Positions 21,163 to 63,571 of a stretch of DNA of 64,000 nucleotides are shown here, one piece after another (within the stretch, counting starts at the first letter, position 1; every line of letters begins with the position of its first letter). The notes beneath the pieces are model-generated. The model did no database searches. It saw only the letters and a list, made by a program, of their open reading frames with translations, and was not told the DNA's origin. The stretch comes from Paragorgia papillata (Eukaryota > Cnidaria > Anthozoa > Scleralcyonacea > Coralliidae). The stretch spans positions 3,877,001 to 3,941,000 of the forward strand of contig JAWNZC010000234.1 of the NCBI GenBank assembly GCA_035771165.1. The letters run 5' to 3'. Made by a program: the position numbers and the translations under genes.

Positions 21163-21884
<722 letters not shown>

Positions 21885-21887
<3 letters not shown>

Positions 21888-24800: not shown

Positions 24801-25566
24801 AGACGGAAAAAGAACCGCAACTACAACCTCTATCTGGTGAGAACATCCTTCCCCGAACAGCAAATCGGCAAGAAGAAGCCAGGGCGGATATCAAAGCAAA
24901 AGGCTTTTGGTGTCGACAGCAAAGCGCATTTTTTGACGTGAGGGTGTTTCATCCAAACGCGCCAAGCTATCGCAACACAAGCATTACTGCTTTATTCCGA
25001 AGACAGGAACAAGCAAAGAAGAGAGAATACGGCGATAGGATTAGAGAAGTCGAGCATGCCTCCTTTACACCTTTGGTTTTTGCAACAACAGGAGGACTCA
25101 GCAAAGAAACAACGATAGCATACAAACGGTTAGCCGAACTATTGGCCATGAAACAAAAAACGGAATACAGCACTACTCTAGCCTGGATGCGATGCTCCCT
25201 CTCATTTGCTCTACTTAGGTCCGCTATTTCATGTATCAGAGGCTCGAGAGCATCATCACATCGAAGTCCGAATACGAACACGAACATTGAACTTAGTATT
25301 GTAGAAAGTCGATTATCTTATACGTAAATTTTTAATTAAATATTTATTTTTTTATTTATTTATTTTTATTTATTTATTTATTATTTTTATATTTATTTTT
25401 TTTTTTTGTCTTTTTTCTTTCTATTTATTTTTAAAATGTAATATTAGTGTAACTATAATTTTATATATATATATAACAGTTAGCCTACAGAACTTTAAAA
25501 TTGTAAATAGTATGCTGTAAAGAAGATTGTTTTTTTCTTTTAAATTTAAAAAAAAAAAATAAAAAA
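21885..25566 (+). mobile_element. RLE-type non-LTR retrotransposon inserted in TAA/TTA microsatellite (Dong/R4-like)
   Basis: The element has a ~65-base 5' leader, one long frame and a 240-base AT-rich 3' UTR ending in an A-rich tail (about 25546-25566). It is bounded on both sides by (TTA/ATT)n. Dong elements of the R4 clade are known to insert in TAA repeats, so the location and the restriction-like endonuclease agree. No TSD can be read inside such repeats. Confidence 0.82.
21950..25327 (+). CDS. Reverse transcriptase with Myb-like N-terminus and restriction-like endonuclease
   Basis: From the ATG at 21950 the product is 1125 residues. Residues about 11-75 (KWTDQMVIDILDCRKRAL...LTAQNLRDRA) look like a Myb/SANT-type DNA-binding fold. 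An acidic linker precedes the reverse transcriptase: LIPLDKDPGVRPIGIGE, motif A VDATNAFNTIN near 532, GITQGDPLAMAMYALA, and the catalytic FADDS near 619. The C-terminal part has a CCHC knuckle (CVCGASFSTDHAMIC, near 909) and a PD-(D/E)XK-like nuclease, ARADI...FFDVRVFHP near 978-996. This order is that of R2/R4/NeSL/Dong proteins, which nick a specific target and prime cDNA there. No stop or frameshift is seen, so it could be active. A GTG upstream at 21905 is less likely as the start. Confidence 0.88.
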   Translation: MPPRRKDKASGRIKWTDQMVIDILDCRKRALDQYRSNCDGISSRGRTGYMEIMKRLWEEKGYALLGLTAQNLRDRAAYYEKNRRDIGGSSSSGIEEQVQQESIASQENGESEDPEIAIVENSDEICITENANSSTFSASVETEQLQDIPNIENEGHFGELNNNASSSLPDESDFRWDEVHGSVFCQRIDKAYEEIVHWKRNVFLIPSGKGGKSFVQELARLYQSYADANALERVALKACSVMQCLLLQKPHAKSKTKEHVIHLERRIKLWSQGNVEALLHEGKCIQKHLTSNTHRTVELEKIARGFSRLMMQGKVRQAVRLISNAERGGLLSIDELIPMGTDENGNTNWQTTRDILIQKHPEGKIPPPETLLPEPESDEIYHDPIIFERITGDSIKQAANRTQGAAGPSGVDAYAWRRFCSSFKSASVDLCNAMAGVARRLCTTPVHPDGISAFVACRLIPLDKDPGVRPIGIGEVPRRIIAKSILKVIGEDVKSAAGCLQTCAGHEAGCEAAIHAMKEIQAIEETEAILLVDATNAFNTINREAALHNIKVICPAMSTVLNNTYTKPIRLFVTGGGEISSMEGITQGDPLAMAMYALAITPLITRLRREEQDVKQVWFADDSTAAGRLRALKSWWQNLTAVGPGFGYFPNASKTTLVVKPELSEEATEMFEGSGIEITTEGKKILGAALGTTTFVEEYVTKKVEEWAEEILDLAKIAEMYPHAAYAAFSHVIMRKWQYIMRTVEDVGKLFQPIEDAINEKLIPALTGRGQCSLEERKLLSLPTRYGGLNIVNPTESANIQFDASKKIAEPLKEMIIDQTESYRKPQLQDIKSNLRRQKNQYHESVATQVRESLPTTKQRVMDLLNEKGSSSWLTRLPLKDQGFNLNKGEFRDALSLRYGWQLKNLAHYCVCGASFSTDHAMICPHGGMTIVRHNEIRDLTADWLNEVCTETEKEPQLQPLSGENILPRTANRQEEARADIKAKGFWCRQQSAFFDVRVFHPNAPSYRNTSITALFRRQEQAKKREYGDRIREVEHASFTPLVFATTGGLSKETTIAYKRLAELLAMKQKTEYSTTLAWMRCSLSFALLRSAISCIRGSRASSHRSPNTNTNIELSIVESRLSYT

Positions 25567-28332
<2,766 letters not shown>

Positions 28333-39049: not shown

Positions 39050-39370
39050 CGCGTGTTTCATCAAGCTTGTTACAACTTGTCAACTGCAGATTTGTTACGG
39101 CTTGTGTTCACAAGTTGTTACAGGTCTGATGACGACAATATTGTTACGATCTGTTCACAACAAGCTTGCAGCAAGTTGTTGGAACAAGTTGTTACTGGTC
39201 TGATAACGACAATATTGTTCCGGCTTGTCCGAACAACTTGCAACAAGTCTACAAACAACCCGTTGCAGATTTGTCAGGACAAACCGGAACAAGGCATACG
39301 AACGCATCCGGATATCGGCTTGTTCATGACAAGTTGTAACAGACCTGTTACAACATGTGCGTTTCCGGCT
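39050..39370. repeat. Degenerate TTGTTACAA-type array, locus 2
   Basis: Repeats of CAAGTTGTTACAGGTCTG, GACAATATTGTTACGATCTG, CAACAAGCTTGCAGC and the like. The minus-strand Penelope frame runs into it at its 3' end. Confidence 0.82.
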
Positions 39371-39389
39371 GTGTAGCTCGCTACTATAG

Positions 39390-40563
39390 TGTTCCTATGG
39401 GATTTAATTAAAGGCAAATAGTTTGTTGGAAATTCCCTACGCTCGTTTACCGTTTTTACATCTAAAGTGGGATGCCACGACTCCAAAAACATTCTTTGTT
39501 CATAATTTAATACGCCTCGTTCTAAAATTTTGGCATATTTTGGATGTATGTCATGCCCTGATGTCTCCGCGTGCTGCTTAATGGCAGATTCGTTGTTGGT
39601 ACGTCGACCTGGATTATGCTCCTTCCCTCTCGAGTCCCACGAGCGCTTACTTTCTCCAACATACGTGAAGCAACAATCCTTGCACTTGACTTTGTATACG
39701 ATACCCGTCACTTTAAATTCGTCATTCCTGTCCTTTGATATTTTAAAAATACTAGAGAGGGGTTGTAATGGTTTAAGTGTGACCTTAATGTTGACCCGTT
39801 TCAAGGTCCGCTTGATACGCTCCGCTACTCCCTTGACATACGGTAAAACTACAAAACATTCGGCATCCTTTTGCTGTGGTGGAGCTCTTTGACTTTTGCA
39901 TTTGTTTTGGACCGTCTGGATAAACTTACGGTGATACCCATTTACTCTAAGGTCACTACAAACTTTCTCTATTTCCTGTTGACGAAGTTCCTCATTTGTA
40001 GGGATTTCCCCGGCTCTGTGCAATAGCGTGCTAACAACTCCCGCTTTGTGTTGTGACGGATTGTGTGAATCGAAATGCAAATACTTGTTAGTGTGGGTCT
40101 CTTTTCGATAGATAGTTACCTCGACGGGATGGTGTGGTACAGCTGAGATATTACAATCTAAAAATGGTATACATTGCTTTCCTTCAATTTCAACGGGGTG
40201 TTCCATGGTAAACTGTATATGGTGGTTAATAGAATTTAGGTGGGTATAGAAATCTGCAATATGTTTTCGTTTCAGACACACATTAGAGTCGTCAACATAT
40301 CTTCGCCACCAACGTGGTTTTGACGGAAATGTTGCCAAAGCCTTCGTTTCTATAGACTGCATGACGAGCTCAGCAATGACGGCACTGACCGGTGAACCCA
40401 TAGCGCATCCAAAAATCTGGTGGTAGTAGGTGCCCTCGAACACAAAAAAACTGTTTTCGAGTACAAGCCTTAAGAGGTCAATGACATGGTGTTTTTCAAG
40501 ATCAGTATGTTGTTTCCAAGCGTCGTCTTCATTTAACCTCGTTTCCACTACCTGTATAGCCAA
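39390..40563 (-). pseudogene. Penelope-like RT C-terminal half and GIY-YIG endonuclease
   Basis: The frame covers the RT palm end (HQIFGCAMGSPVSAVIAELV, then the catalytic YVDDSNV, IPFLDC) and a linker leading to a GIY-YIG nuclease: VYKVKCKDCCFTYVGESKRS, then H..GRRTNNESAIKQHAETSGH. The nuclease nicks DNA for target-primed reverse transcription. There is no ATG at the start; the frame begins in the middle of RT because of a frameshift at the junction with 40558-40865. After FPTNYLPLI the frame runs on into flanking TTGTTACAA repeat DNA. Confidence 0.86.
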
Positions 40564-40901
40564 GGAAATTGGTATGGATGTATAAACAACGAAACGACAT
40601 CGAAGGATACGATGATTTCATCTTCTTCAATTACATGAGTTGAGACAAAATTTGCTAACTCTTTAGAGTTCTTTATCATGCTTTCACTTTGGTATTTGAG
40701 AAGATTCAAAAGTTTAGTTAGGTATTTCGACACCGAATAGGTGGGAGAACCAACGCAGGAATTAATTGGCCTCATCGGGATGCTGTTGGTGTTGTCTTCC
40801 AGGGTTAAGTGACCTTCCTTAGGTGTTAAGTTGACTTTATGAATTTTGGGAAACCCGTAAAACATCGCTGGCGTCGAGTCGGCAGGTCGTAATGTTCTAT
40901 A
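40558..40901 (-). pseudogene. Penelope-like RT, middle part (fingers)
   Basis: The frame reads FYGFPKIHKVN, MRPINSCVGSPTYSVSKYL, IKNSKELANFV and IIVSFDVVSLF, the RT fingers and motif A region (Asp in SFDVVSLF). A one-base slip in the run TTTGTTTATAC just after it puts the rest of RT in another frame. Upstream it joins the segment at 41321-41465 once the MITE is removed. Confidence 0.84.
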
Positions 40902-41320
40902 CAGTAAATATCCGCTTGTAAGAACCTAGTGATTTAAGAACCTGTAGGCAGAAATTTTGGATTTTAATACCCTAAAATATAAGAACCTGTTTAGCCAACC
41001 AAAGCCACAAGGGTCTTATATGAAGAGTCACTCTGAATAATGAAACAGTGCTGTAGCCAAAATGTGGGACTATAAAATATAAATTTGCTATATATTTGGC
41101 CCTTCCATAAAAATATCATTACAGAAATTACATACATACAGTATAATCTCTCTATAACAAAGTGGTTTATATATGTGGTCATATAGCATTTCCCTTAAAG
41201 AAATTTTAAGAACCTATTAAGAACCTATTTTGCCTAAATTGTCAGTAATTACCCCAAAATATAAGAACCTATTTTGCCAGACTTGAAAAAATCTAGGTTC
41301 TTACACGTGGGTGTTTACTG
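40902..41320. mobile_element. 419-bp MITE with CAGTAAA termini and TA TSD
   Basis: CAGTAAATATCCGCTTGTAA at the left and TTACACGTGGGTGTTTACTG at the right are imperfect inverses, followed by the well-matched GAACCTAG. TA flanks both sides (40900-40901, 41321-41322). Inside, AAGAACCT(A/G)TTTTGCC-like phrases recur. Removing it plus one TA makes the Penelope frame continuous (GFIKEEEY|RTLRPADS), which proves the boundaries. Confidence 0.85.
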
Positions 41321-41465
41321 TATTCTTCTTCCTTGATAAAGCCCGAATTTTTAAGATCAAGAAGTTTGCGCTGTATGACTGAAGTTGTTTTTGAGGTTGG
41401 ATTTCTTCTCTTATCTGTGATAGGTTGGTAAGTATTCCTGTCTTGCAACATGGCTATAATTCCTT
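41321..41465 (-). pseudogene. Penelope-like RT, N-terminal part
   Basis: The minus-strand frame reads MLQDRNTYQPITDKRRNPTS and LQRK-type helices ending LLDLKNSGFIKEEEY. This is the typical start of a Penelope RT thumb-side N-terminus (ILxDxxTYxPI). The 5' end is cut at the head-to-head junction near 41470. Confidence 0.75.
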
Positions 41466-41474
41466 AGTGACTAT

Positions 41475-42030
41475 AAGTGACCTTAGAGTAAATGGGTATC
41501 ACCGTAAGTTTATCCAGACGGTCCAAAACAAATGCAAAAGTCAAAGAGCTCCACCACAGCGAAAGGATGCCGAATATTTTGTAGTTTTACCGTATGTCAA
41601 GGGAGTAGCGGAGCGTATCAAGCGGACCTTGGAACGAGTCAACATTAAGGTCGCACCTAAACCATTACAACCCCTCTCTAGTATTTTTAAAATACCAAAG
41701 GACAGGAATGACGAATTTAAAGTGACGGGTATCGTATACAAAGTCAAGTGCAAGGATTGCTGCTTCACATATATATGTTGGAGAAAGTAAGCGCTGGTGG
41801 GACTCGAGAGGGAAGGTGCATAATCCAGGTCGACGTACCAACAACGAATCTGCCATTAAGCAGCACTCGGAGACATCAGGGCATGACATACATCCAAAAT
41901 ATGCCAACATTTTAGAACGAGGCGTATTAAATTATGAACAAAGAATGTTTTTAGGTCGTGGCATTCCACTTTAGATGTAAAAACGGTAAACGAGCGTAGG
42001 GAATTTCCAACAAACTATTTGCCCAAAATA
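41475..42030 (+). pseudogene. Inverted partial Penelope-like copy (linker + GIY-YIG)
   Basis: The plus-strand sequence matches the minus-strand copy from DLRVNGYHRKFIQTV through the GIY-YIG region with a few substitutions (QRKDAEY versus QQKDAEC). Two extra bases in CATATATATGTTGG shift the frame at the TYVGE motif. Further on, ERRT/ERG-like residues continue in the other frame and stop after MFLG. It lies head to head with the copy at 39390-41465. Confidence 0.85.
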
Positions 42031-43424: not shown

Positions 43425-44217
43425 TTTTGCAGTTCAGACACCGACACAAATCAATTATTGTAATAACTACGTCCATGGAACCGGCCAATTCGCTCAACAC
43501 AATCCTGCGTTTCAAATACCTTCCGCGATTTCTGGAACCGCCCAAGTTGCTCAACACAATCCTGCTTTTTAAATACCTTCCGCGATTTCTGGAACCGCCC
43601 AAGTTGCTCAACACAATCATGCGTTTCAAATACCTTCCGCGATTTCTGGAACCGCCCAAGTTGCTCAACACAATCCTGCGTTTCAAATACCTTCCGCGAT
43701 TTCTGGAACCGCCCAAGTTGCTCAACACCATCCTGTGTTTCAAATATCTTCCGCGATTTCTGGAACCGCCCAAGTTGCTCAACACAATCCTGCGTTTCAA
43801 ATATCTTCCGCGATTTCTGGAACCGCCCAAGTTGCTCAACACAATCCTGCGTATCAAATACCTTCCGCGATTCCGCAACAGTCCTTGTCTTTCAAAATCA
43901 AGTGGGTAACGGGGACACGGGTATCTCGCTGCTATGGATGTAACAGGGAGGTCAGGAATCCTCCAGAAGCTGCACCAGACGACCTGATTGTTGTGTATCG
44001 CGACATACGTCAATATCGAGATCAAAATACGGGGCAAGTGCAGTTTTCAAGCGAGCCACAGAACGTACACTTCCACCTTAGAGCTGCTTGCATCAGAGCA
44101 CGATACCCCAAATTTCCCAGCAACGCTCTTGTCGTACCTACAGATTTCCCACCTCATTTTCGTGCGGAACACATTCAAGACTTACTGCTGAGTTTGGCTG
44201 GGTCCTTTAAGCTGTAA
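43425..44217 (+). CDS. C-terminal exon of SWIM-family protein with 19-residue repeats
   Basis: After an acceptor-like CCTTTTGCAG the plus-strand frame carries a 57-bp minisatellite translated as GTAQVAQHNPAFQISSAIS units, then KIKWVTGTRVSRCYGCNREV, NPP, LIVVYRDIRQYRDQNTGQV and NVHFHLRAACIRARYP, and stops at 44217 after LAGSFKL. This Cys/His-rich tail normally follows a SWIM domain in the same protein family as I recall it. Repeat unit 2 has a TAA in this frame (TTTTTAAATACC), so even if spliced the product would be cut. Because 57 is divisible by 3, all three plus frames are almost open; only this one leads into the conserved tail. Confidence 0.55.
43482..43873. repeat. 57-bp minisatellite, about seven units
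   Basis: Unit: TTCTGGAACCGCCCAAGTTG + CTCAACACAATCCTGCGTTT + CAAATACCTTCCGCGAT, with only 1-3 changes per copy. Within the SWIM-family gene. Confidence 0.93.
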
Positions 44218-48490: not shown

Positions 48491-48620
48491 ATTTATCAAA
48501 CTGATCAATTTTCTAAAATATCCAGATGTGGGATATGTGTTTTTAGCATATCAATGATACTGATACTGATATATAAATATATAAATATATAAATATATAT
48601 ATATATAATTATATAGTTCA

Positions 48621-48667
48621 ATCTACAGACACGGTGTTTCGCTGTACAACAGCTCATCAGTGTAGCT
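48621..48667 (-). ncRNA. Hammerhead ribozyme, type I, copy 1
   Basis: On the minus strand: stem I CTACA (48665-48661) pairs with TGTAG; CTGATGA at 48660-48654; stem II GCTGT-TGT-ACAGC (48653-48641) is perfect; GAAA at 48640-48637; stem III is short (CA..TG with loop CCG); the cleavage triplet GTC ends at 48628. CAA/TTG extends stem I after a 1x1 mismatch. It heads a ~190-bp unit running to about 48808. Confidence 0.85.
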
Positions 48668-48808
48668 TGGAACAATCTGAATGAATTTCATCAATTACTT
48701 ATACACATGCGATCGTCGGTGACAACCGCATGTGGGACAGCATCGGTGAAGTACATTCAGATAGCGTGAAGTGCGCATGGGCCCAGAGTGCTCAAACTTC
48801 CACAAGGT
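48621..48808 (-). repeat. ~190-bp hammerhead-bearing unit, copy 1
   Basis: On the minus strand the unit runs from CCTTGTGGAAGTTTGAGCAC to the hammerhead at its 3' end and is bordered by TA-rich runs. A near-identical copy lies at 49043-49230 and a diverged inverted copy at 49322-49516. Confidence 0.85.
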
Positions 48809-48985
48809 CAGTGATATTTATATATCAGTATCAGTATCATTGATATGCTAAAAACACATATCCCACATCTGGATATTTTAGAAAATTGATATATATATAT
48901 ATATATATATATATGCTAAAAATATATAAATATGCTAAAAACACATATCCCACATCTGGATATTTTAGAAAATTGATCAGTTTGA

Positions 48986-49040
<55 letters not shown>

Positions 49041-49042
49041 CA

Positions 49043-49089
49043 ATCTACAGACACGGTGTTTCGCTGTACAACAGCTCATCAGTGTAGCT
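49043..49089 (-). ncRNA. Hammerhead ribozyme, type I, copy 2
   Basis: Identical to copy 1 and displaced by exactly 422 bases; all core and stem residues are kept. It heads the second ~190-bp unit (to about 49230). Confidence 0.85.
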
Positions 49090-49233
49090 TGGAACAATCT
49101 GAATGAATTTCATCAATTACTTATACACATGCGATCGTCGGTGACAACCGCATGTGGGACAGCATCGGTGAAATACATTCAGATAGCGTGAAGTGCGCAT
49201 GGGCCCAGAGTGCTCAAACTTCCACAAGGGTAG

Positions 49234-49246
49234 TGAGCGTTGCATG

Positions 49247-49321
<75 letters not shown>
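49234..49321. repeat. (TA)n microsatellite between hammerhead units
   Basis: Pure TA run of about 75 bases separating the second and third (inverted) units. Other TA runs lie at 48890-48914 and 48988-49036. Confidence 0.9.
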
Positions 49322-49328
<7 letters not shown>

Positions 49329-49463
49329 GGAAGTTTGAGCACTCTGGCCCTATACCACCTCATGCTCTCTAGATGTGCGCACTATTTACATTATCGCACA
49401 ATCGTTGTCACCGGCAATTGCTTGGGGTATATATAAGTAGTGTTCTCACATCTAGATTGTTCC

Positions 49464-49510
49464 AAGCTACACTGATGAGCCGTAGTACAGCGAAACACAT
49501 GTCTGTATAT
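49464..49510 (+). ncRNA. Hammerhead ribozyme, type I, inverted diverged copy
   Basis: Plus strand: CTACA 49467-49471, CTGATGA 49472-49478, stem II GCCGT-AGT-ACAGC (one C-A mismatch), GAAA 49492-49495, short stem III CA-CA-TG, GTC to 49503, then TGTATATTG. The stem I pairing is weakened at one position. It ends the unit that starts near 49322 with CTTTGTGGAAGTTTGAGCAC. Confidence 0.75.
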
Positions 49511-49636
49511 TGAACTATATATATATAAAATAGGTTGTGTCTTACCCACGCTGTGATTGGTCAATTACCGTGTTTATATCAGGCTATGTAAACACGGTTG
49601 TGATGTCACGGCACATTTTTTAGCCTTATTCCATAA

Positions 49637-49830
49637 AAGAAATAGAAAATGGATGCCCTGTGTTTATATAACCTGATGCAAACACTCGAGTGAGTTGGGA
49701 GAATTCGAAAGTACTTATGTAAACTCTCGCCTACGGCTCGGGTTCACATAAACTTTCGAATTCTCCCAACTCACTCTCGTGTTTGCATCAGGCTATATAA
49801 ACACAGGCGGCCCTTTTCTATTTCTTAAAT
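49637..49830. repeat. ~190-bp foldback element
   Basis: AAGAAATAGAAAATGG, CCTGTGTTTATATAACCTGA and GTTGGGAGAATTCGAAAGT are all mirrored in order on the right, giving arms of about 85-90 bases. The loop holds CGCCTACGGCTCGGG. Confidence 0.88.
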
Positions 49831-54016: not shown

Positions 54017-54286
54017 ACTTTTTTCAGGACCTCTTACCCCTAGTTTTTAGTTACCAGGCTGTCCGCGTGAGTCCTGTGCGCGCGCATGTGAACCGGAAAT
54101 ACGTGTTTGAATAGAGAAACCGGTTTTAACAAGTATGAGGTTTAGAAACGGAAATAGGTTTAATGGAAATTTGTAGCAATGTCTGAGACCATTTTAAAAG
54201 AGTCAAAAAATGAAAAAAGCCTAGTTGTTTTGTGACAAGTGATTAGAACACAACTTCAAAGTTTTGTAAGGAGAATACTGTAAACG

Positions 54287-54703
54287 ATGGCAAGTAACAT
54301 ATGTGAAGTACCTGGCGATGTTGGTGATGAAGGAAGATTCCTGAGTCATCGACAGAAGGTGATTGAAGACAAACTATTAAATTGTTATGCCGACGAAGTT
54401 GCTTCAAACATATCAGGCTTGGTATTGAAGAATTGTAATGGCTGTCGTATCGAGCATCCTTCACAGAGGCAACACGACTGTTTAATGATGGAATCAGACG
54501 AACGAATTTGGTTGTACTTTGACGTGGCGTTGGAAACAGTTTCTGAAGCGAAAATTGTCGAAAAGTTTATGAACTCTTTACATGACATGAAGCCACAAGT
54601 TAATGGACTTGAACTGCTAAAATATACTTGCAAAGACTGGCGAGTATTGTTTTGTTTGAAACAGAGACAACGTCTTAAAATCCAAACTTTTAATCTTGTA
54701 TAA
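54287..54703 (+). CDS. Small Cys-rich Polinton protein of unknown function
   Basis: 138 residues from ATG 54287. The recognisable feature is CNGCRIEHPSQRQHDCLM (about residues 49-66), a Cys/His set that may hold zinc. Similar short proteins with a GC..HPSQ..H.C motif are, as I recall, frequent at this end of Polinton-type elements, but I know no function. It is followed by 0.6 kb without a gene. Confidence 0.6.
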   Translation: MASNICEVPGDVGDEGRFLSHRQKVIEDKLLNCYADEVASNISGLVLKNCNGCRIEHPSQRQHDCLMMESDERIWLYFDVALETVSEAKIVEKFMNSLHDMKPQVNGLELLKYTCKDWRVLFCLKQRQRLKIQTFNLV

Positions 54704-55275
54704 AGTACGATGTTGAAATGTGTCCTGAGCCATGTAATATTCCTAAACATACGATGAAATAAAACATGATTTAATATACTATGACTGGTCTAATTTTGTT
54801 AAACTATGGGGGTAACCGGCTTATTGATGCGAATGTTTTTTTTTTTCTCCAAGTTATATTTTGAACATTCATGCATGTACATGTACAAATTTGAATGAAG
54901 AAAGTTAATTATAGTCAATATTGTGATTTAGCCTTAATCATCCGTGCAGACGCGAAAGACAACAAAGCAAAATAATCAATATCAAAGCTGAATAGAAACA
55001 CATTAAGTTCGATCGTTAAAACTTGTTAATTTTGACCTGTTTAATGACTAATCTTATAACAAATCAAGGTAAAGTCCAGCATTGTACATCCGTGCTCGTA
55101 ATGAACAGATCTTATGTATGAATGTAATATATGTAAGCCCTCTAATGGTTTGAAAATGACATTAAGGTATTTTCCCAGTAATCACAAAATAATGACAAGT
55201 CATTATAATAGAATAGGGTAAAGTTCAAGTTACATTCGTGTTGATAATGATTTGATTTTATGCATGAACATAGAG
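54704..55275. other. Intergenic gap in the Polinton
   Basis: AT-rich, no coding motif. AATAAA near 54758 could end the upstream transcript. Confidence 0.5.
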
Positions 55276-55283
55276 TATAAAAA
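55276..55283 (+). promoter_or_regulatory. TATA box for GRF-finger gene
   Basis: TATAAAAA lies 57 bases before the ATG at 55340, a normal spacing for a short leader. Confidence 0.5.
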
Positions 55284-55339
55284 AGGATGAAATTTATAGT
55301 TGGGGTAGAGAATAATCTTTGGCACGTTCTAACGGAGAA

Positions 55340-55792
55340 ATGGTTTCAGTCGAGAAATATCCGTGTTTTTGTGGTGCTGGACTCAAGCGTTTTGAGTCAA
55401 AAGCTGGACGTGGATTTGTAAAGTGCAAAACGGAGACTTGTACTTTGTTTGTGCCTGAAGAGAAATATAACGCTCTTATAGAGTGTTACCAAAGCAAGGT
55501 TGACCTGGCGTTCAAACCTAACAAGTTCCCGTTATGTGATTGCGACGAAGTTGCAAGCTTGTGGGTGTCCAATTCGGTGGCCAATCCAGGTCGACCGTAT
55601 TTCAGATGTCAGGAGATTAGCGTCGATGAAAAGTGCGACTTTTTCAAGTGGGGGGGCAGCAAACCTAAGAAAAAACCCAAGGGAATGAAAAGAGTTGTAA
55701 AGGAGAGAAAACAGGGAAAAAACAAACCTCCAAAAAAGAAGACACGAGTACAGCCTCTTGAATCTTCTGAAGGTGAACAACAGAACTCTTAA
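55340..55792 (+). CDS. Double GRF-type zinc-finger protein
   Basis: The first ATG is at 55340 (an upstream TTG at 55319 is not a likely start), giving 150 residues. Two GRF-like zinc modules are visible: CFCGAGLKRFESKAGRGFVKCK...C and LCDCDEVASLW...GRPYFRCQ followed by CDFFKWGG. GRF fingers in topoisomerase III and APE2 bind single-stranded nucleic acid. The Lys-rich tail fits nucleic-acid binding. Placed directly upstream of the polymerase gene, it may serve replication; that is inference. Confidence 0.72.
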   Translation: MVSVEKYPCFCGAGLKRFESKAGRGFVKCKTETCTLFVPEEKYNALIECYQSKVDLAFKPNKFPLCDCDEVASLWVSNSVANPGRPYFRCQEISVDEKCDFFKWGGSKPKKKPKGMKRVVKERKQGKNKPPKKKTRVQPLESSEGEQQNS

Positions 55793-56017
55793 AACAATTT
55801 AAATTGCATTTGTCGGGAACTCTTAAAAACAATTTAAATTACATTTGTTACCAGGAACAATTAATCGTATTTGTCATGCGCTTTATTATTTAATTTTTTA
55901 TGGATGTTGAGTGTCAATTAATCAATACAATATTTTTAAAACGTTTTTATTGTGTGGTTTAATGATCAATTTGCAATGTACAATATTGTCATGTGCGCTA
56001 TGAATACATGATGAAAC

Positions 56018-56025
56018 TATAAAAG
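56018..56025 (+). promoter_or_regulatory. TATA box for polymerase gene
   Basis: TATAAAAG is 106 bases upstream of the ATG at 56131. Confidence 0.55.
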
Positions 56026-56130
56026 AGGCTGTCGATGTGAGTTTCTTCACACAATCTGTCACTGAGCAATTGTGAATCTCCGTTTCTTTATTAAACATTA
56101 CATTTTGTTCTCGCGTTTATACTTTTCGAA

Positions 56131-56538
56131 ATGAATTCCACGAGTAACATTGCTGTCCGTTGTGAACGTCTTCACTCAAAAGCTGTGAGTAGTAACAAGA
56201 AGGCTAGCCGTCTTCTCAAAAAAGTTGAGAAAGAGTTGCGGAAGCGAGAACCAGACTTAGCGAAAGTGTTGAAGTATCAAAAGAAGTCTGCCAAAATGGT
56301 AGAACGAGGTATAAAATACCTTGATCAACGCGAGGCTTTGAGATCGGTTCCCGAACCACAACAACCTGTACAAGTGAATTTTAACTTAACCAAAGTATCT
56401 GAAAGATATGTCAAGAAGTTTGGCGCGACGTCGTGCGTGTATCGTGCTTCCATGGAGTCTGTTTCTGATGAAGGAACATTAAAAGTCAAAGACATCATGG
56501 AGGAACTCACAAGCTTGTTCACAGACGCCATCGACAAG
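56131..56538 (+). CDS. DNA polymerase B gene, exon 1 (N-terminus)
   Basis: ATG 56131 opens 136 codons of helical, Lys-rich sequence (KKASRLLKKVEKELRKREPD). Read through, the frame stops after six more codons at 56559. A GT at 56539 follows AAG at a codon boundary, and 131 bases later an acceptor (TTTTATTACTAG, 56669) opens the polymerase frame in phase 0 with 16 codons before the next ATG (56718). I therefore treat it as exon 1 of the polymerase. The alternative is a separate 142-residue protein. Confidence 0.62.
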
Positions 56539-56669
56539 GTATATAGTGAATATCGTTAATTGTGTTATGTGTTGACAAACCCGTAAAAATGTTCTTGGTG
56601 TATGTAGTACTTAATACCTAGTGAATTGTTCAGTTTATATATTAATCGGGGTTTTACTTTTATTACTAG
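56539..56669 (+). other. Predicted phase-0 GT-AG intron, 131 bp
   Basis: The donor is AAG|GTATAT and the acceptor is TTTTACTTTTATTACTAG|GT, with a clear pyrimidine tract. The intron is AT-rich and carries stops in the exon 1 frame. Confidence 0.62.
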
Positions 56670-58163
56670 GTAAAAGACCAGTGTGACTTACAAACACCAC
56701 TCGAGGACCGAATTCGGGTGATGATTCGTTCTGATGCTTTAAAGGCACCTATCAGCACACGACTTCTACCTGCCATCCAGATGACCGCAAATAAAGTGTT
56801 GGCTGAGGTCACCAAAGTTTTGCAGAGTAACGACAATATCCCGTTAGACCAATCTTTTGTCATCGATGTGGTAGCCGTGAAACAGCCAACCGGGTCCGGT
56901 AAAGTTAACAAAAACTCTCTTAAAGTTTTAGATTATTCTAAAGACACTTTAGTTAAAAGATCTATTATTACCATTAAAAATAAGGATAATCTATGTTGTG
57001 GGAGGGCTTTAGCTGTAGGGCAGGCGTTAGCCGATAATCATCCAAAGTTGAAACAAATTAAAGATGGTAGGTTAATTCAGAAAAAATTAGCTTTAGAATT
57101 ATATAAAAAAGCTAATATTTCGCCTGGTCCTTGCGGTCTTCGGGAGGTATCGAAGTTCCAAATGGTCTTGTCGGGTTACCAGATTACTATTATTGATTTT
57201 AATGCTAGAAACACTAGCATTTACGAAGGACCCCGGCGTGATAAACAGATTGTATTGTACAAACACGGTGATCATTATAATGTCATTAATCCGAAGAAAC
57301 TTCCAGCTTTCCACGGTAAACGTTTTTATTGCGAAAAATGTAAGTCTTTTTATTCGGATTACCGTAAGCATCCTTGCTCTGATCCGTGTCGCACTTGCTT
57401 ACGCAAAGAATGTCTTTGGGTTCCATCTGAAAAGCGTACTTGTACCGAATGTTTCAAAATTTCTCGTTCTGTTAAATGTTATGATTTTCACAAAAAGACT
57501 CGTAAGTCTAAAGGCGTTGATCTTCCGTCAAAATGCGATATGTCGTTTCGGTGTCAAAAGTGTTCAGTTACTGTTGATAGAAAACGACAAGACGTACATG
57601 TATGTGGAGAATATAAGTGTGATCTATGTAAAACGTTTGTGTTGTCTGGTCATCTGTGCTACATGCAGCCTGAAACGCCAAAAACGCCTAACGAGAAACT
57701 TATATTTTACGACTTTGAGACAGACTTTTCGACTGGTGAACATGTTGTGAATTTTGCTGTGGCACAGTACGGTGACGGAACTGAGTATGTGTTTAAGGGG
57801 TACAATGCACTAAACGAGTTTTGTGAATTTTTATTTTCGATGGAACACAAAGGTTTTACTGCAATTGCACATAATTCTAAAGGCTTTGACGGGGTTCTTA
57901 TTCAAAGGTGGCTAATAGACAACAGACCAACTGCTGACATGCATGTTATTCATTCAGGGCAAAAAATTATGCAGCTTCATTTAAAAGATTATAAAATTCG
58001 ACTTGTTGACTCCCTTAACTTTCTGCAAATGCCTCTTTCCAAATTTCCTAAGACGTTTGGTTTAGATTTATCGACGTATTCCAAAGGTGATTTCCCATTT
58101 AAATTTAATACTGTTGAAAATCAAAATTATATTGGTCCATTGCCAGATATTATTGCCCATTAG
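56670..58163 (+). CDS. Protein-primed DNA polymerase B, exon 2, up to premature TAG
   Basis: This part has the N-terminal region, a Cys-rich segment with several CxxC pairs (about 57330-57680) and the first two exonuclease motifs: exo I in FYDFETDF (near 57710) and exo II in HNSKGFDGVL (near 57875). These belong to the 3'-5' proofreading domain of family B polymerases. At 58161-58163 a TAG interrupts the frame; the same frame continues with polymerase sequence after it. As it stands only a truncated product without polymerase domain would be made, unless the stop is read through or is a sequencing error. Confidence 0.83.
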   Translation, partial: VKDQCDLQTPLEDRIRVMIRSDALKAPISTRLLPAIQMTANKVLAEVTKVLQSNDNIPLDQSFVIDVVAVKQPTGSGKVNKNSLKVLDYSKDTLVKRSIITIKNKDNLCCGRALAVGQALADNHPKLKQIKDGRLIQKKLALELYKKANISPGPCGLREVSKFQMVLSGYQITIIDFNARNTSIYEGPRRDKQIVLYKHGDHYNVINPKKLPAFHGKRFYCEKCKSFYSDYRKHPCSDPCRTCLRKECLWVPSEKRTCTECFKISRSVKCYDFHKKTRKSKGVDLPSKCDMSFRCQKCSVTVDRKRQDVHVCGEYKCDLCKTFVLSGHLCYMQPETPKTPNEKLIFYDFETDFSTGEHVVNFAVAQYGDGTEYVFKGYNALNEFCEFLFSMEHKGFTAIAHNSKGFDGVLIQRWLIDNRPTADMHVIHSGQKIMQLHLKDYKIRLVDSLNFLQMPLSKFPKTFGLDLSTYSKGDFPFKFNTVENQNYIGPLPDIIAH

Positions 58164-60491
58164 GATTATAGCCCAGATACAAAAGAAGAAGAAATTCGAA
58201 ATAATCTCATTACCTGGCATAATAATTTATCTCAAAGTAATTATATTTTTGACTTTCAAAAAGAAATTTACACGTACTGTTCTCAAGATGTTACGATTTT
58301 ACGTTTATGTTGCATGCAATTTAGAAATTCATTTTTGAGTGAAACAGGAGTTGATCCTTTTTGTTACTGCACGATTGCAGCTTCTGTTATGGCTGTTTAT
58401 CGTTCAAAATATTTAAAAAAAGATACTATAGGTATTGTACCAAAGAACATGTACCATGGAGGTAATAAGCCCTATTCAGAAAGTTCAATTGAATGGTTAG
58501 AATTTGTAGCTTTTCAAACAAATTCGATTATTAGACATGCTATTAGTAACGGTGGTGAAAAGGCAATTGTTGACACGGCGTTAGGTAAGACTTATCACGT
58601 TGACGGTTTTTGTGAACAAACAAACACTATCTACGAATACTACGGCTGTGTGTATCATGCGTGCCCGTTATGTTTTGATGTTAGAGGGGACCACCCATTT
58701 TATAAAGAAAGGAAGATGGAAGACGTTTACAAGGACACAATTCAACGCGAACAACGATTACGCGACCTAGGTTACACTGTTAAAACAATATGGGAACATG
58801 ACTTTAGGAAACTTAGAGAAACGGACGAAATGCAACAGTTTCTGGACACTTTTGACATTGTCACAGACCTCCAGCCTATCGCTAGTTTTTTTGGAGGAAG
58901 AACTGGAGGTTTTAAGTTATTTCGCGAAGCAAAACAAGACGAAACTATTGAGTATGTCGACTTTACTTCTTTGTACCCTTTTGTTAACAAAACAAAAAAA
59001 TACCCAGTCGGTCATCCTACAATTATTCGGGAGAACTTTGATGACATTTCTAATTATTTCGGTCTTGTAAAATGTAGAGTTTTGGCACCGCCTAATTTAT
59101 ATCATCCAGTTTTACCTGTCAGAGCAAAAAGTAAATTATTTTTTCCTTTGTGTAAGCAGTGTGTCATGACAGACTCTGAAGAATGCCGGCATTCAGAGGA
59201 GGAACGTTCTTTCTGGGGTACTTTTACAACTATCGAAGTGTCGAAGGCGATTGAGAAAGGTTACAAAATTTTAGAAATTCATGAGGTCTGGCATTTTGCA
59301 GAGACTTCTGATGATTTATTTAGTGAATATGTGAATTATTTTTTAAGACTAAAACAAGAAAGCTCGGGGTATCCGGATTGGGTGAATACACCCGAGGACC
59401 AGGCGAAATATATTGACGATTACTTTAAACACGAAGGTATACTTTTACGAAGAGAAAAAATTGTGAAAAACCCTGGGTTAAGAGCACTTGCAAAGCTGTG
59501 CTTAAATTCTTTATGGGGGAAATTTTGCCAACGAACAGATAGGTTGAGTACTGAGTTTATTAGTGATCCTTTGTTATTCTATAAACGTCTTAATGGGGCT
59601 GATACAAATGTACACGATTTATGTATTTTAAATGATGACTTAGTGGAAGTTGTCTTTAAACGCAACCATGAATATCAAACTGAAAACAAAATGACTAATA
59701 TTTTTGTAGGAATTTTTACAACTGCATGGGCTCGATTAGAGCTTTATAATGTATTAGATTTGCTTGGGGAGAATGCTTTGTATGTAGATACAGACAGCTG
59801 TGTGTATGTTTCTAAACCAGATAGTCCAAAGCCGCTTTTAGGTGATTATTTAGGAGATTTAACGAATGAGGTTACTGTTAAATATGGTCCGGGCACCTAT
59901 ATTACTCAGTTTGTCTGCGGCGGAGCCAAGAATTACGCTTATAGTGTAAATAATGGAAAGAAACATTGTAAAATACGAGGATTTACTTTAAATTTTAAGA
60001 ATAGCCAAGTTTTAAATTTTAATTCATTAAAAGATATTATTTGTAATTATAATGTAGATAAACCTGTTAGTAAAAAGATAGTAGAATGTAAAATAACTAG
60101 AGAAAAATGGACTAGGCGAATTGTAAATAAGACTCAAACAAAGACTTACCAAGTTGTCTTTGATAAGAGAATTATACTGGACCGCGGGGCTGACACCATT
60201 CCATACGGCTACCACTGGTCACCGTTGAACACTATTCCTATCGACACTCCTGGTTTGACGTTGCCATCGGTTCCTGACGAGATCCTTTACACGTTATCAC
60301 ATTCATCTGTGGTTGAAACATGTCGCGATGATGACATGGAAACAGACGTAGACATTGATCTAATGGAAACCGACTCCGAAGTGGACAATGATTATAGCTC
60401 AGAGAATGAATCTGACAGAGATTTTGTCAATGACAATGTTTATTCTAACGAAGATGTTTCGTTTTACAGACGTTTTGATAACGAATTTTAA
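58164..60491 (+). CDS. Protein-primed DNA polymerase B, catalytic part after the TAG
   Basis: Exo III (YCSQDV, near 58276) comes first, so the break falls inside the exonuclease domain. The palm motifs follow: A in DFTSLYP (near 58960-58980), B in LCLNSLWGKF (near 59500-59525) and C in YVDTDS (near 59781-59798). Length and order fit protein-primed polymerases of Polintons, adenoviruses and related viruses, which replicate linear DNA from a terminal protein. An internal ATG at 58314 would start after exo III. The last ~60 residues are strongly acidic. The gene ends at TAA 60491. No other stop or shift is seen. Confidence 0.86.
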   Translation, partial: DYSPDTKEEEIRNNLITWHNNLSQSNYIFDFQKEIYTYCSQDVTILRLCCMQFRNSFLSETGVDPFCYCTIAASVMAVYRSKYLKKDTIGIVPKNMYHGGNKPYSESSIEWLEFVAFQTNSIIRHAISNGGEKAIVDTALGKTYHVDGFCEQTNTIYEYYGCVYHACPLCFDVRGDHPFYKERKMEDVYKDTIQREQRLRDLGYTVKTIWEHDFRKLRETDEMQQFLDTFDIVTDLQPIASFFGGRTGGFKLFREAKQDETIEYVDFTSLYPFVNKTKKYPVGHPTIIRENFDDISNYFGLVKCRVLAPPNLYHPVLPVRAKSKLFFPLCKQCVMTDSEECRHSEEERSFWGTFTTIEVSKAIEKGYKILEIHEVWHFAETSDDLFSEYVNYFLRLKQESSGYPDWVNTPEDQAKYIDDYFKHEGILLRREKIVKNPGLRALAKLCLNSLWGKFCQRTDRLSTEFISDPLLFYKRLNGADTNVHDLCILNDDLVEVVFKRNHEYQTENKMTNIFVGIFTTAWARLELYNVLDLLGENALYVDTDSCVYVSKPDSPKPLLGDYLGDLTNEVTVKYGPGTYITQFVCGGAKNYAYSVNNGKKHCKIRGFTLNFKNSQVLNFNSLKDIICNYNVDKPVSKKIVECKITREKWTRRIVNKTQTKTYQVVFDKRIILDRGADTIPYGYHWSPLNTIPIDTPGLTLPSVPDEILYTLSHSSVVETCRDDDMETDVDIDLMETDSEVDNDYSSENESDRDFVNDNVYSNEDVSFYRRFDNEF

Positions 60492-61092
60492 ATGTTTTAG
60501 GCGAATCCTTCACCAATGTGTTTGGTGGCGAGAAACGCAAATGATGAATGCATGTAATATTTTTGAGTGAGTAGACGCTAATTAAAAATAGCGTCCTTTG
60601 AAATGTAAATACTTTTATCTGACAAATATCTTTAAAAACTTTCCTTCTTCTTGCTAGTAACTTCTAGAACTCTTGAAAACATTTCAGACAGAAACTTTGT
60701 TGAAAAAAAGAAAGACTATTTCTGACACTCTGAGGAAATGTATATAGCCGTTTTTTAAAAATCTGATGAATTGTTAAGCGAATATACGCTAATTAAAAAT
60801 AGCGTCCTTTAAAATCGGTGTAATTTGTTTCTTACCAATTTATACTAAAAAGAAATTGTTCTTGTCGAGAAAAAACAAATTATTTTCTCTGTTACCCTAA
60901 GAAAGGGTATAGTCATTTTTTTGAAAATGAAGTCTGAAATGAAATGGTTTTTTTGAATAGACTATATTAATAGCATCCTTTGTAAATGTAAATATAGGTG
61001 TGTAATTAAAATTTTCTTTTTAAAAAAAAAAAGTGTTTATAGTCTGATATGCATGCGGCGCTCAGTCATTCCAAAAGTTATCTCCTTCAATT
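60492..61092. promoter_or_regulatory. Non-coding gap with repeated ACGCTAATTAAAAATAGCGTC palindrome
   Basis: GACGCTAATTAAAAATAGCG + TC (60574-60595) recurs at 60786-60806, with a worn third copy near 60958-60977 (TATTAATAGCATCC). Each is followed by CTTT..AA and lies about 175-210 bases from the next. The spacing hints at a triplicated block. The gap separates replication from packaging genes, so the repeats may serve in expression or replication. Confidence 0.6.
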
Positions 61093-61734
61093 ATGGATGT
61101 ACGGTTCAAAACTCCAGCAAACTTTTATATTTGTGGTCAGAGTCAATCTGGAAAATCATATTTAGTCCGGTCAATGCTCCATCATCTTAATGACCTCTTT
61201 GATCCTGTACCGTGCAAAATAATCTATTGTTACGGGGAACACCAATCGTTTTTTAATGACATGAAACGGACAATAGCCAATATCGAGTTTCTCGAAGGCT
61301 TCCCCGACGATTTATATCACAAGCTAGGGGATACCGAAAATTCACTCGTTATTTTGGATGATTTAATGTCACATTGCTCAAAAGATCAGCGCATGTCGGA
61401 TTTGTTCACTCGTGGCTCGCACCACAGGGGTATCTCCGTGATGTATTTGACACAAAATCTTTTTCCTCCAGGTAAACAGTCTCGGACTATTAGTCTAAAT
61501 TCTCATTATATGGTTGTATTCAAGAATCCGAGAGATTCACTGGGAATCACAACATTGGCCCGTCAGATGTACCCGAAACACATCAACTATTTGTTAGACT
61601 CGTTCCACGACGCTACGAGTAAACCGTATGGTTACCTCCTCCTAGACATGCATCAGATGACACCGGAAAACATGCGGTTACGAACAAATATTTTACCAAA
61701 CGAGCGGCAAATTGTTTACACAAAACGTACATAA
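61093..61734 (+). CDS. DNA-packaging ATPase (A32/FtsK-HerA type)
   Basis: 213 residues from ATG 61093. Walker A is GQSQSGKSYL (residues about 14-23) and Walker B is LVILDDLM (about 85-92). A conserved Gln in sensor position, MYLTQNLF, and an Arg-rich stretch follow. This is the small packaging ATPase shared by Polintons, poxviruses and giant viruses, which pumps DNA into the capsid at a vertex. Complete, no break. It overlaps nothing upstream and is followed 34 bases later by the next gene. Confidence 0.88.
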   Translation: MDVRFKTPANFYICGQSQSGKSYLVRSMLHHLNDLFDPVPCKIIYCYGEHQSFFNDMKRTIANIEFLEGFPDDLYHKLGDTENSLVILDDLMSHCSKDQRMSDLFTRGSHHRGISVMYLTQNLFPPGKQSRTISLNSHYMVVFKNPRDSLGITTLARQMYPKHINYLLDSFHDATSKPYGYLLLDMHQMTPENMRLRTNILPNERQIVYTKRT

Positions 61735-61768
61735 ACCAAATCCATATCTTAGTTCACGTCATTTCACC

Positions 61769-62098
61769 ATGTCTAAGCGGATGAGAGACAATCTGCCTTA
61801 CTTGCAAGTTCTTGCAAAAAGCAAACCAAAAGTTCGAAAAATCATTGTGGAGCATGCTCCGGCTGACTTAGTTTTATGTATCTGCGAATGCTCGTTGAAT
61901 TTATTAAAAGGTGTCATTCCATTGACACCTAGTCAAAAGCAAAAACTTTCGCGTTACAAGAAGCATCTCCGTGTTCTAGCAAATAAGAAAGTGTCTCGAA
62001 AAAAGAAAAAACATCTTCTTAATCAAAAAGGGGGAAACCTTTTATCAGTTTTATTACCACCAGTCCTTAACGTGCTGAGCAGTTTATTTACGAAATGA
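61769..62098 (+). CDS. Small basic Polinton protein with adenain-type cleavage site
   Basis: The first ATG is at 61769 (an in-frame TTG at 61712 inside the ATPase gene is not likely), giving 109 residues. The N-terminal half is helical (LPYLQVLAKSKPKVRKIIV), the middle is very basic (SRKKKKHLLNQKGG), and the end is hydrophobic (LLSVLLPPVLNVLSSLF). QKGG|N fits the adenovirus protease consensus (M/I/L/N/Q)xGG|x. It resembles adenovirus core/cement polypeptides such as pX or pVI in design, but I infer this from composition only. Its stop overlaps the next start as ATGA. Confidence 0.7.
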   Translation: MSKRMRDNLPYLQVLAKSKPKVRKIIVEHAPADLVLCICECSLNLLKGVIPLTPSQKQKLSRYKKHLRVLANKKVSRKKKKHLLNQKGGNLLSVLLPPVLNVLSSLFTK

Positions 62099-62838
62099 GT
62101 CATTTCAAGCGTATGGTTCTTGTTCCAGAAGACACACTTCACAGACTTGAACGTAAACAGAAACAAGAAACATCCCCTCTTGTCACAAATCTTATGAACA
62201 TCATTGAGAATATGGATAGTGTTCTGAGACGTACAGACATGAACGACGATGAAAAGCAAAAATTATATTATGCTGATCTTGAACGATATTTAAACCTGAA
62301 ACACCAAAAGAACAACGATTTTCCCACGATTAATGTTAATAGTACAACTTTTAACCCTAACAACTCGGCTGAAGATAAAGAAGGAACGTCAAAAGAAACA
62401 TTGAGCGACTCGGTTATTGTCGATTCTATACCTAAAACTATGCGTGAACGAGCAGTGTCCATCTTGAACAGATTAAAAGCTTATCCTAACGTTATATCTT
62501 GGGACAACACAGGACAAGTAAAGTTAGACGGCAATGATATTCAAGGGTCAAATATTTCAGATCTACTAAGCGACGCTGTGAGAGGGAGAAAAAAATTCAA
62601 TCCGGCTGGTTCAAAGGAATTCTTTCGAGTGTTATCAAAGATTAATATGCCTAAAGAACTTGTGAGAAATGATGAAAGATGGAGACAGGCACAAATTGAA
62701 TCCCCGTCAGAAGATGAAGAACTTCTTTACACAAGTCCACTGCACGGGAGTCCTTTTTTAACGCCCCCAAAGAGGCAGACGCATGCCAAAACAACTAAAT
62801 CTAAGGAAACGCCAAAAACACGCTGGCATAAATATTAA
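62095..62838 (+). CDS. Conserved Polinton hypothetical protein (247 aa)
   Basis: It starts at ATG 62095 within the ATGA overlap, which implies coupled expression with the upstream gene. Charged helical N-terminus (VLRRTDMNDDEKQKLYYADL), a Ser/Thr-rich linker, then a compact domain: RERAVSILNRLKAYPNVISW, DNTGQVKLDGNDIQGSNISD, then KFNPAGSKEFFRVLSKINMP with RWRQAQ. I recall this ILxRLKxxPxVISW...GSNIxDLL domain as recurrent next to capsid genes in animal Polinton-type elements, without known function. A basic tail ends at 62838. Confidence 0.68.
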   Translation: MSHFKRMVLVPEDTLHRLERKQKQETSPLVTNLMNIIENMDSVLRRTDMNDDEKQKLYYADLERYLNLKHQKNNDFPTINVNSTTFNPNNSAEDKEGTSKETLSDSVIVDSIPKTMRERAVSILNRLKAYPNVISWDNTGQVKLDGNDIQGSNISDLLSDAVRGRKKFNPAGSKEFFRVLSKINMPKELVRNDERWRQAQIESPSEDEELLYTSPLHGSPFLTPPKRQTHAKTTKSKETPKTRWHKY

Positions 62839-63002
62839 TCTTTATGTAAACGTTTTTACGATCATTAATAAAATTGCTTTCAAATTATCCAATTATCAGT
62901 CTTTTGTTGTCGTTTTGCGTGGGGAAGCAGGTCTTTTAGGAGAAAACGAGTGGGCCAGTGCAGTGTTCAAGTCGAGATAGAAAAACAAGTCAATGTTGAA
63001 CG

Positions 63003-63016
63003 AATAAAGTTTTATT
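63003..63016. terminator. Overlapping opposed polyadenylation signals
   Basis: AATAAA (63003-63008, plus) and TTTATT (63011-63016, AATAAA on the minus strand) stand between the convergent plus-strand block and the protease gene, a compact bidirectional end. Confidence 0.62.
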
Positions 63017-63046
63017 TTAAAAAAATTTAAAAAGGTATTAAAGTGT

Positions 63047-63571
63047 TTATTGGTTTCTTAATTTTTCAACTAACTTCTTACTAGACTGATTTTCGCCTGA
63101 CATTTTTTTCAACTTATAAAAATGTTTATTGACAAATGTAAACACTTTAGTATCGTTCGATATTTTACTGTTATCGAACATATGTACAATTGTACTTAAA
63201 CTGTGTCCACGTGCTTTATGACTTAGGTAAAACAAACAATATTGTCCACATACATCTGTCCAAATACTTTGTAATTCACGCGTGTTAAAGTTCCACTCGA
63301 CAACATGTTGGTCTAGATAATGTCTAAATGTTTCGTTATAATAGCCAGGGGCTTTGCCGTAGCTATCGAAGAACTGTCCCTCGTGTTCTGATAGAAAGTA
63401 AAAGGCCACCCAATGTGTTCCTGGTTTGTTGCTTGGGTCTGTGTTTGCCACAAATCCACACGGAAAACGTTCTATGACTTTGGGTAGTTGATCGGATGAG
63501 AAGACACCACAAAATATTTTTCTTGTGATAGGATCTAATTCAAGAGCACGAACAATCTGGTTGGTGTTCAT
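63047..63571 (-). CDS. Adenain-like cysteine protease
   Basis: 174 residues from ATG at 63571. The catalytic set aligns with adenovirus protease: His53 in GTHWVAF, Asp69 in FFDSYG, Gln101 seven residues before Cys108 in DVCGQYCLF. The spacing matches adenain (His54, Glu71, Gln115, Cys122) within the usual range. Such proteases cleave virion precursor proteins at (M/I/L/N/Q)xGG|x sites, and the nearby small basic protein carries one. Its ATG directly abuts the stop of the capsid gene. Intact. Confidence 0.87.
   Translation of the reverse strand: MNTNQIVRALELDPITRKIFCGVFSSDQLPKVIERFPCGFVANTDPSNKPGTHWVAFYFLSEHEGQFFDSYGKAPGYYNETFRHYLDQHVVEWNFNTRELQSIWTDVCGQYCLFYLSHKARGHSLSTIVHMFDNSKISNDTKVFTFVNKHFYKLKKMSGENQSSKKLVEKLRNQ

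Follow-up and report, generated by a model that had tools for sequence, protein, structure and literature searches.

Three related non-coding units with a hammerhead motif are present at 48616-48814, 49038-49236 and 49322-49515 of a 64-kb stretch of DNA from Paragorgia papillata (contig JAWNZC010000234.1; hereafter the window). The units are probably copies of an animal-type (non-LTR) retrozyme, which would be cut, circularised and moved via supplied machinery as proposed below. They may be regarded as an addition to the known retrozyme class, perhaps moved by Penelope-type machinery. An earlier note on this DNA had suggested a non-autonomous ribozyme-bearing repeat family. The non-autonomous repeat is still the best reading, although this kind of repeat has already been described under the name of non-LTR retrozymes (PMC7229834).

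The ribozyme sense of unit 1 (48616-48814) and unit 2 (49038-49236) is the minus strand. Both have the same orientation, their starts are 422 bp apart, and 3 of 199 positions differ between them. The conserved part of a unit is ~192 nt long; in unit 1, it covers 48616-48807, and the remaining 7 nt partly match unit 2. Unit 3 (49322-49515) is an inverted and diverged copy with its ribozyme sense on the plus strand and an identity of ~75% to units 1 and 2. Read in ribozyme sense, the units start with CCTT(T)GTGG and finish with GAAC, which is the outer part of stem I, and TA sequence comes directly after. The hammerheads sit at the 3′ ends. This agrees with the earlier note, which had described three units of ~190 bp with a hammerhead at the same end, two of them nearly identical and 422 bp apart with core and stems kept, and the third inverted and diverged.

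The GC contents of units 1, 2, and 3 are 0.467, 0.462, and 0.435, respectively. No open frame overlaps the units in the ORF list, which has a minimum length of 120 aa. Between 47500 and 50600, we found no long direct repeats flanking the units besides the units themselves, the arm copies described below and TA sequence, and hence no LTR. Patterns for RNA polymerase III A and B boxes gave no match in the units and the 30 bp around them. Units 1 and 2 do not form a tight tandem array; the linker between them is made up of TA tracts and arm sequence.

The type I hammerhead of unit 1 occupies 48616-48673 on the minus strand and is predicted to be cut between 48628 and 48627. That of unit 2 (49038-49095, minus strand) is identical, with predicted cleavage between 49050 and 49049. 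In both, all core bases (CTGATGA, GAA, and the cleavage triplet GTC) and all hammerhead pairs are present. Stem I consists of CTACA/TGTAG and, beyond an internal loop, the outer GTTC/GAAC. Stem II can be read as 4 bp (GCTG/CAGC) or as 5 bp closed by a three-base loop. Stem III is looped and has 3 bp; the descriptor output shows four pairs at this place as a one-base loop is allowed, and three is the realistic number. The features that assign a motif to the type I hammerhead, i.e., the core CUGANGA...GAA, an NUH triplet, stems I-III, and an open stem I, were all found in units 1 and 2. Judged from the sequence, the type I secondary structure is complete in these two units, and cleavage is predicted. 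The earlier note had likened the motif to the minimal type with a very short stem III. Stem III is indeed short, but it is present and looped, and together with the internal loop of stem I, it brings the motif nearer to the retrozyme pattern than to the minimal Penelope pattern (PMC7761336). In the diverged hammerhead of unit 3 (49459-49515, plus strand), the core is intact, but stems I and II each have one broken pair (2 of 16 in total).

A strict type I descriptor matched twice in the 64 kb, namely in units 1 and 2 (expected 0.0075 per window), and a relaxed descriptor matched three times, in all three units (expected 0.225 per window). These chance figures come from 400 first-order Markov simulations of the window and are optimistic, as the descriptors and thresholds were drawn up with the motif already known. 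The loosest descriptor, with 7 matches against 2.66 expected, is uninformative. A covariance check had been proposed in the earlier note, and the lack of a hit above threshold had been set beforehand as refuting. Formally, this is the outcome: cmscan of the whole window against Rfam gave no match at the gathering score, and a scan of 6 kb at E ≤ 5 gave 61 matches, none of them a hammerhead. Hammerheads below threshold appear only in scans of 101 and 91 bases. Here, unit 1 matches HH9 with 19.7 bits (E 0.0059; gathering score 52) and unit 3 matches Hammerhead_1 with 16.4 bits (E 0.1; gathering score 34). The gathering score is a detection test and not a defining feature of a hammerhead. In our view, the descriptor result, together with the uneven conservation of the units, carries more weight than the missing covariance match.

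Shuffled sequences fold as well as the isolated motifs, with z = −0.32 for the motif of units 1 and 2 and z = +0.96 for that of unit 3. Such shuffle-level stability is expected because the fold is held by a non-canonical core, and it gives no support either. For the isolated motif of units 1 and 2, the hammerhead has −7.9 kcal mol−1 against −10.8 kcal mol−1 for the minimum-energy fold, which is thus not the hammerhead. The hammerhead of unit 3 is unstable (+1.3 kcal mol−1 against −6.4 kcal mol−1 for the minimum-energy fold). Taken as a whole, unit 1 has a more stable fold than its shuffled versions (z = −2.49; as good in 2 of 200 shuffles), and its middle forms a long hairpin. In circular folds, ~65% of the bases are paired, compared with the 70% quoted for published retrozymes (PMC4918200).

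Conservation between units 1 and 3 is uneven. Of the 58 alignment columns of the ribozyme, 53 are kept, as are 27 of 30 in the 5′ block, which is the first 30 nt of the unit (48778-48807 in unit 1, minus strand). The middle of the unit is less conserved (65 of 108). For ribozyme versus middle, Fisher's test gives p = 1.2e-5 in this one comparison of two copies. At the level of sequence, the pattern shows uneven divergence and falls short of proving selection because it is a single comparison of two copies. In a consensus rod fold of units 1 and 3, 24 of 34 pairs are kept (null 20.7, p = 0.06), and 5 pairs are changed on both sides yet kept (null 3.1, p = 0.14); the rod structure was derived from the same alignment on which it was assessed, which favours it. 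The covariation backing for the rod fold is weak and only suggestive.

TA sequence is found around all three units. A TA-rich tract with the consensus ATATATAA lies left of unit 1 (48569-48615), a (TA)25 tract lies left of unit 2 (48988-49037), and a TA tract of 75 bp lies between units 2 and 3 (49247-49321). Across this last tract, the conserved 5′ blocks of units 2 and 3 face each other in a divergent arrangement (49200-49351). In the 60 bp next to 5 of 6 unit edges, alternating TA makes up 20% or more, a level reached by 1.4% of 60-mers drawn from the window outside the locus. This cut-off was chosen after the fact, and the edges do not count as independent observations, since unit 1 is nearly a copy of unit 2, and one tract borders both unit 2 and unit 3. 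The right edge of unit 3 is exactly at this cut-off. That all units are bordered by (TA)n, as had been claimed, thus applies to most edges but not to the right edge of unit 1, with 10% alternating TA, and 5′ of unit 2, ~14 other bases come before the TA sequence. Inspection by eye indicates that the TA sequence at the edges would mask any target site duplication.

Unit 1 is enclosed by a perfect 77-bp inverted repeat with its left arm at 48504-48580 (plus strand) and its right arm at 48814-48890 (minus strand), which are identical at 77 of 77 positions. Next to unit 2, at 48930-48991 (minus strand), the arm occurs a third time (97% over 62 nt). The locus was probably rearranged recently because the arms around unit 1 are perfect and a third copy is found by unit 2. 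A miniature transposon with the arms as its terminal repeats was considered and rejected, as the third copy matches beyond the supposed end. Just outside unit 3, at 49657-49807, there is a fold-back element with 56-bp arms that are 95% complementary. It matches MIR6217 with 56.2 bits (gathering score 110).

Animal repeats with type I hammerheads that give rise to RNAs of ~170-400 nt have been named non-LTR retrozymes (PMC7229834). They are described as short, low-GC, and non-coding repeats of 150-450 bp that are expressed as linear and circular RNA, and their GC content is given as below 50% in the text and below 45% in the legend of Figure 1 (PMC7229834). Our comparison is with these published descriptions. 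The units resemble metazoan retrozymes in the type I hammerhead, the short non-coding repeat, the same-orientation copies a few hundred bp apart, and the self-paired RNA (PMC7229834, PMC7761336). They further resemble them in having no LTR and no coding capacity (frames of at least 120 aa) and in the presence of a Penelope-like element in the same genome. The 192-nt unit and the 422-nt spacing from cleavage site to cleavage site both lie inside the 150-450 bp range, and the spacing is slightly above the 170-400 nt of the RNAs. All three units are below 50% GC, and one of three is below 45%. Unlike the metazoan retrozymes of these descriptions, the units are separated by TA tracts, form no tight array, and include one inverted copy. 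Plant LTR retrozymes share the non-autonomous, ribozyme-processed logic but have type III hammerheads, ~700 bp between the ribozymes, and LTRs with a PBS and a PPT (PMC4918200).

In a limited literature collection, we found no report of retrozymes in Porifera or of a hammerhead retrozyme insertion in AT-rich DNA. For hammerhead ribozymes in connection with terminal inverted repeats, transposons and microsatellites, it contained one plant review. Neither IMG/VR nor the GTDB contigs gave a match to a pattern for the ribozyme, and IMG/VR gave none to a pattern for the 5′ block. Both collections consist of viral or prokaryotic DNA, so these results are hardly informative on animals. With a looser pattern, four IMG/VR loci matched (L001-L004), three of which share one sequence around the motif. 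These were discarded, as the flanking 40-50 nt are unlike the unit by eye.

The window also contains Penelope-like reverse-transcriptase frames at 39274-40617 and 40548-40925 on the minus strand and, head to head with them, a second Penelope-like fragment at ~41395-42030 on the plus strand. The frames end ~8 kb away from the units (40925), and the further fragment ends ~6.6 kb away (42030). The region 39274-42030 is a degraded Penelope-like element, which may be unrelated to the units. The first ORF (39277-40617) has 311 homologues at E ≤ 0.001, and several of the 120 listed have RT domains. Two of these 120 also have PF01541, the accession of GIY-YIG. GIY-YIG-like residues were recognised by eye in the Penelope-like frames. 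Of the homologues with a species name among the 120 of 311 listed, 14 of 18 are from cnidarians and 4 from fish. Together with the matches of a window transposase given below, this points to an aquatic invertebrate as the source of the DNA. A Pfam scan of the frames gave no family at E 0.001. Near the ORF, neither the strict nor the relaxed hammerhead descriptor had a match, and blastn of the units gave no match at it.

Penelope elements carry type I hammerheads (PMC11167929, PMC7761336), which are described as minimal, i.e., without helix III or loop contacts (PMC7761336). The units share the type I permutation with these pseudo-LTR hammerheads (PMC11167929, PMC7761336). Unlike them, they have a looped 3-bp stem III and a stem I internal loop (PMC7761336), and no RT/GIY-YIG ORF is attached. 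The units are thus probably not solo Penelope repeats, as the presence of helix III sets them apart from the Penelope ribozymes.

This comparison bears directly on one rival explanation, in which the units are solo pseudo-LTR pieces left by an autonomous Penelope-like element that has lost its coding part here. The Penelope-like ORF ~8 kb away fits this, as does the occurrence of type I hammerheads in Penelope elements (PMC11167929, PMC7761336). We nevertheless regard it as unlikely, given the stem III and stem I internal loop of the units against the minimal Penelope hammerheads (PMC7761336) and the lack of any strict, relaxed, or blastn match near that ORF. The units might also be a decayed satellite or dispersed repeat with a relic hammerhead, duplicated at the DNA level in unstable TA tracts and giving no ribozyme-dependent RNA now. 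Such a history would suit the duplicated and inverted arms with their 77/77 identity among TA tracts, the broken pairs and poor fold of unit 3, and also units 1 and 2, which with 3 differences in 199 could be one recent local duplication. It is harder to reconcile with a ribozyme that is among the best-kept parts despite ~25% divergence, and we consider it quite improbable. That an unrelated repeat matches the hammerhead consensus by chance is the least credible explanation and very improbable: the missing Rfam match at the gathering score and the shuffle-level folding of the isolated motif would be as expected, but the ribozyme is preferentially conserved, and 2 strict matches stand against 0.0075 expected, with thresholds set afterwards.

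For the favoured retrozyme reading, we propose the following sequence of events. A minus-strand transcript through units 2 and 1 would be cut by both ribozymes to release a 422-nt RNA of unit, TA, and arm sequence, which a host ligase would close into a circle. The circular or uncut RNA would then be reverse-transcribed and inserted into simple TA-rich DNA. The reverse transcriptase and endonuclease, of the Penelope type or another non-LTR type, would be supplied in trans. Unit 3 would be an older insertion in the opposite orientation, and the flanking arms would have arisen afterwards, by slippage and inverted duplication within the TA tracts.

As to the supplier, Penelope elements were named in 2020 as a strong candidate for moving animal retrozymes, without proof (PMC7229834). 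A preference for simple AT-rich targets has been reported for them (PMC3846280), and a Penelope protein cuts and extends both DNA strands in vitro (PMC11167929). TA-flanked copies in both orientations would fit such AT-rich targeting (PMC3846280) combined with two-strand cutting and extension (PMC11167929), a link that we infer. Since Penelope reportedly uses this type of target (PMC3846280), retrozyme copies lying within TA tracts would be circumstantial evidence for Penelope mobilisation. A more specific version, which we put forward as doubtful, is a retrozyme lineage that prefers TA microsatellites and inserts as single units in either orientation via a Penelope-type endonuclease cutting and extending both strands. 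If this is true, the TA tract is the target and, with stacked copies, part of the 422-nt RNA circle. Such a lineage could explain the inverted 77-bp arms that enclose unit 1 as well, and it would tie retrozymes to their suspected mobilising machinery.

Several other repeats and mobile elements were seen in the window. An array of ~782 copies of ATT (25567-27907; 2.3 kb, 99% match) adjoins an RT-bearing retrotransposon ORF at 21824-25327, for which none of the 120 listed matches has a species name. At 43476-43872, a 57-bp tandem repeat has 7 copies, with several frames open on both strands. The block at 54284-63571, which we take to be Polinton/Maverick-like, has a family-B DNA polymerase (PF03175) in the neighbouring frames 56670-58163 and 58164-60491 and a weak match to a Pox_A32-like ATPase (19.1 bits, cut-off 22.8). 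A transposase in the window has 829 matches, and those with a species name among the 120 listed are from cnidarians (Hydractinia, Hydra, Paramuricea, Dendronephthya, and Xenia).
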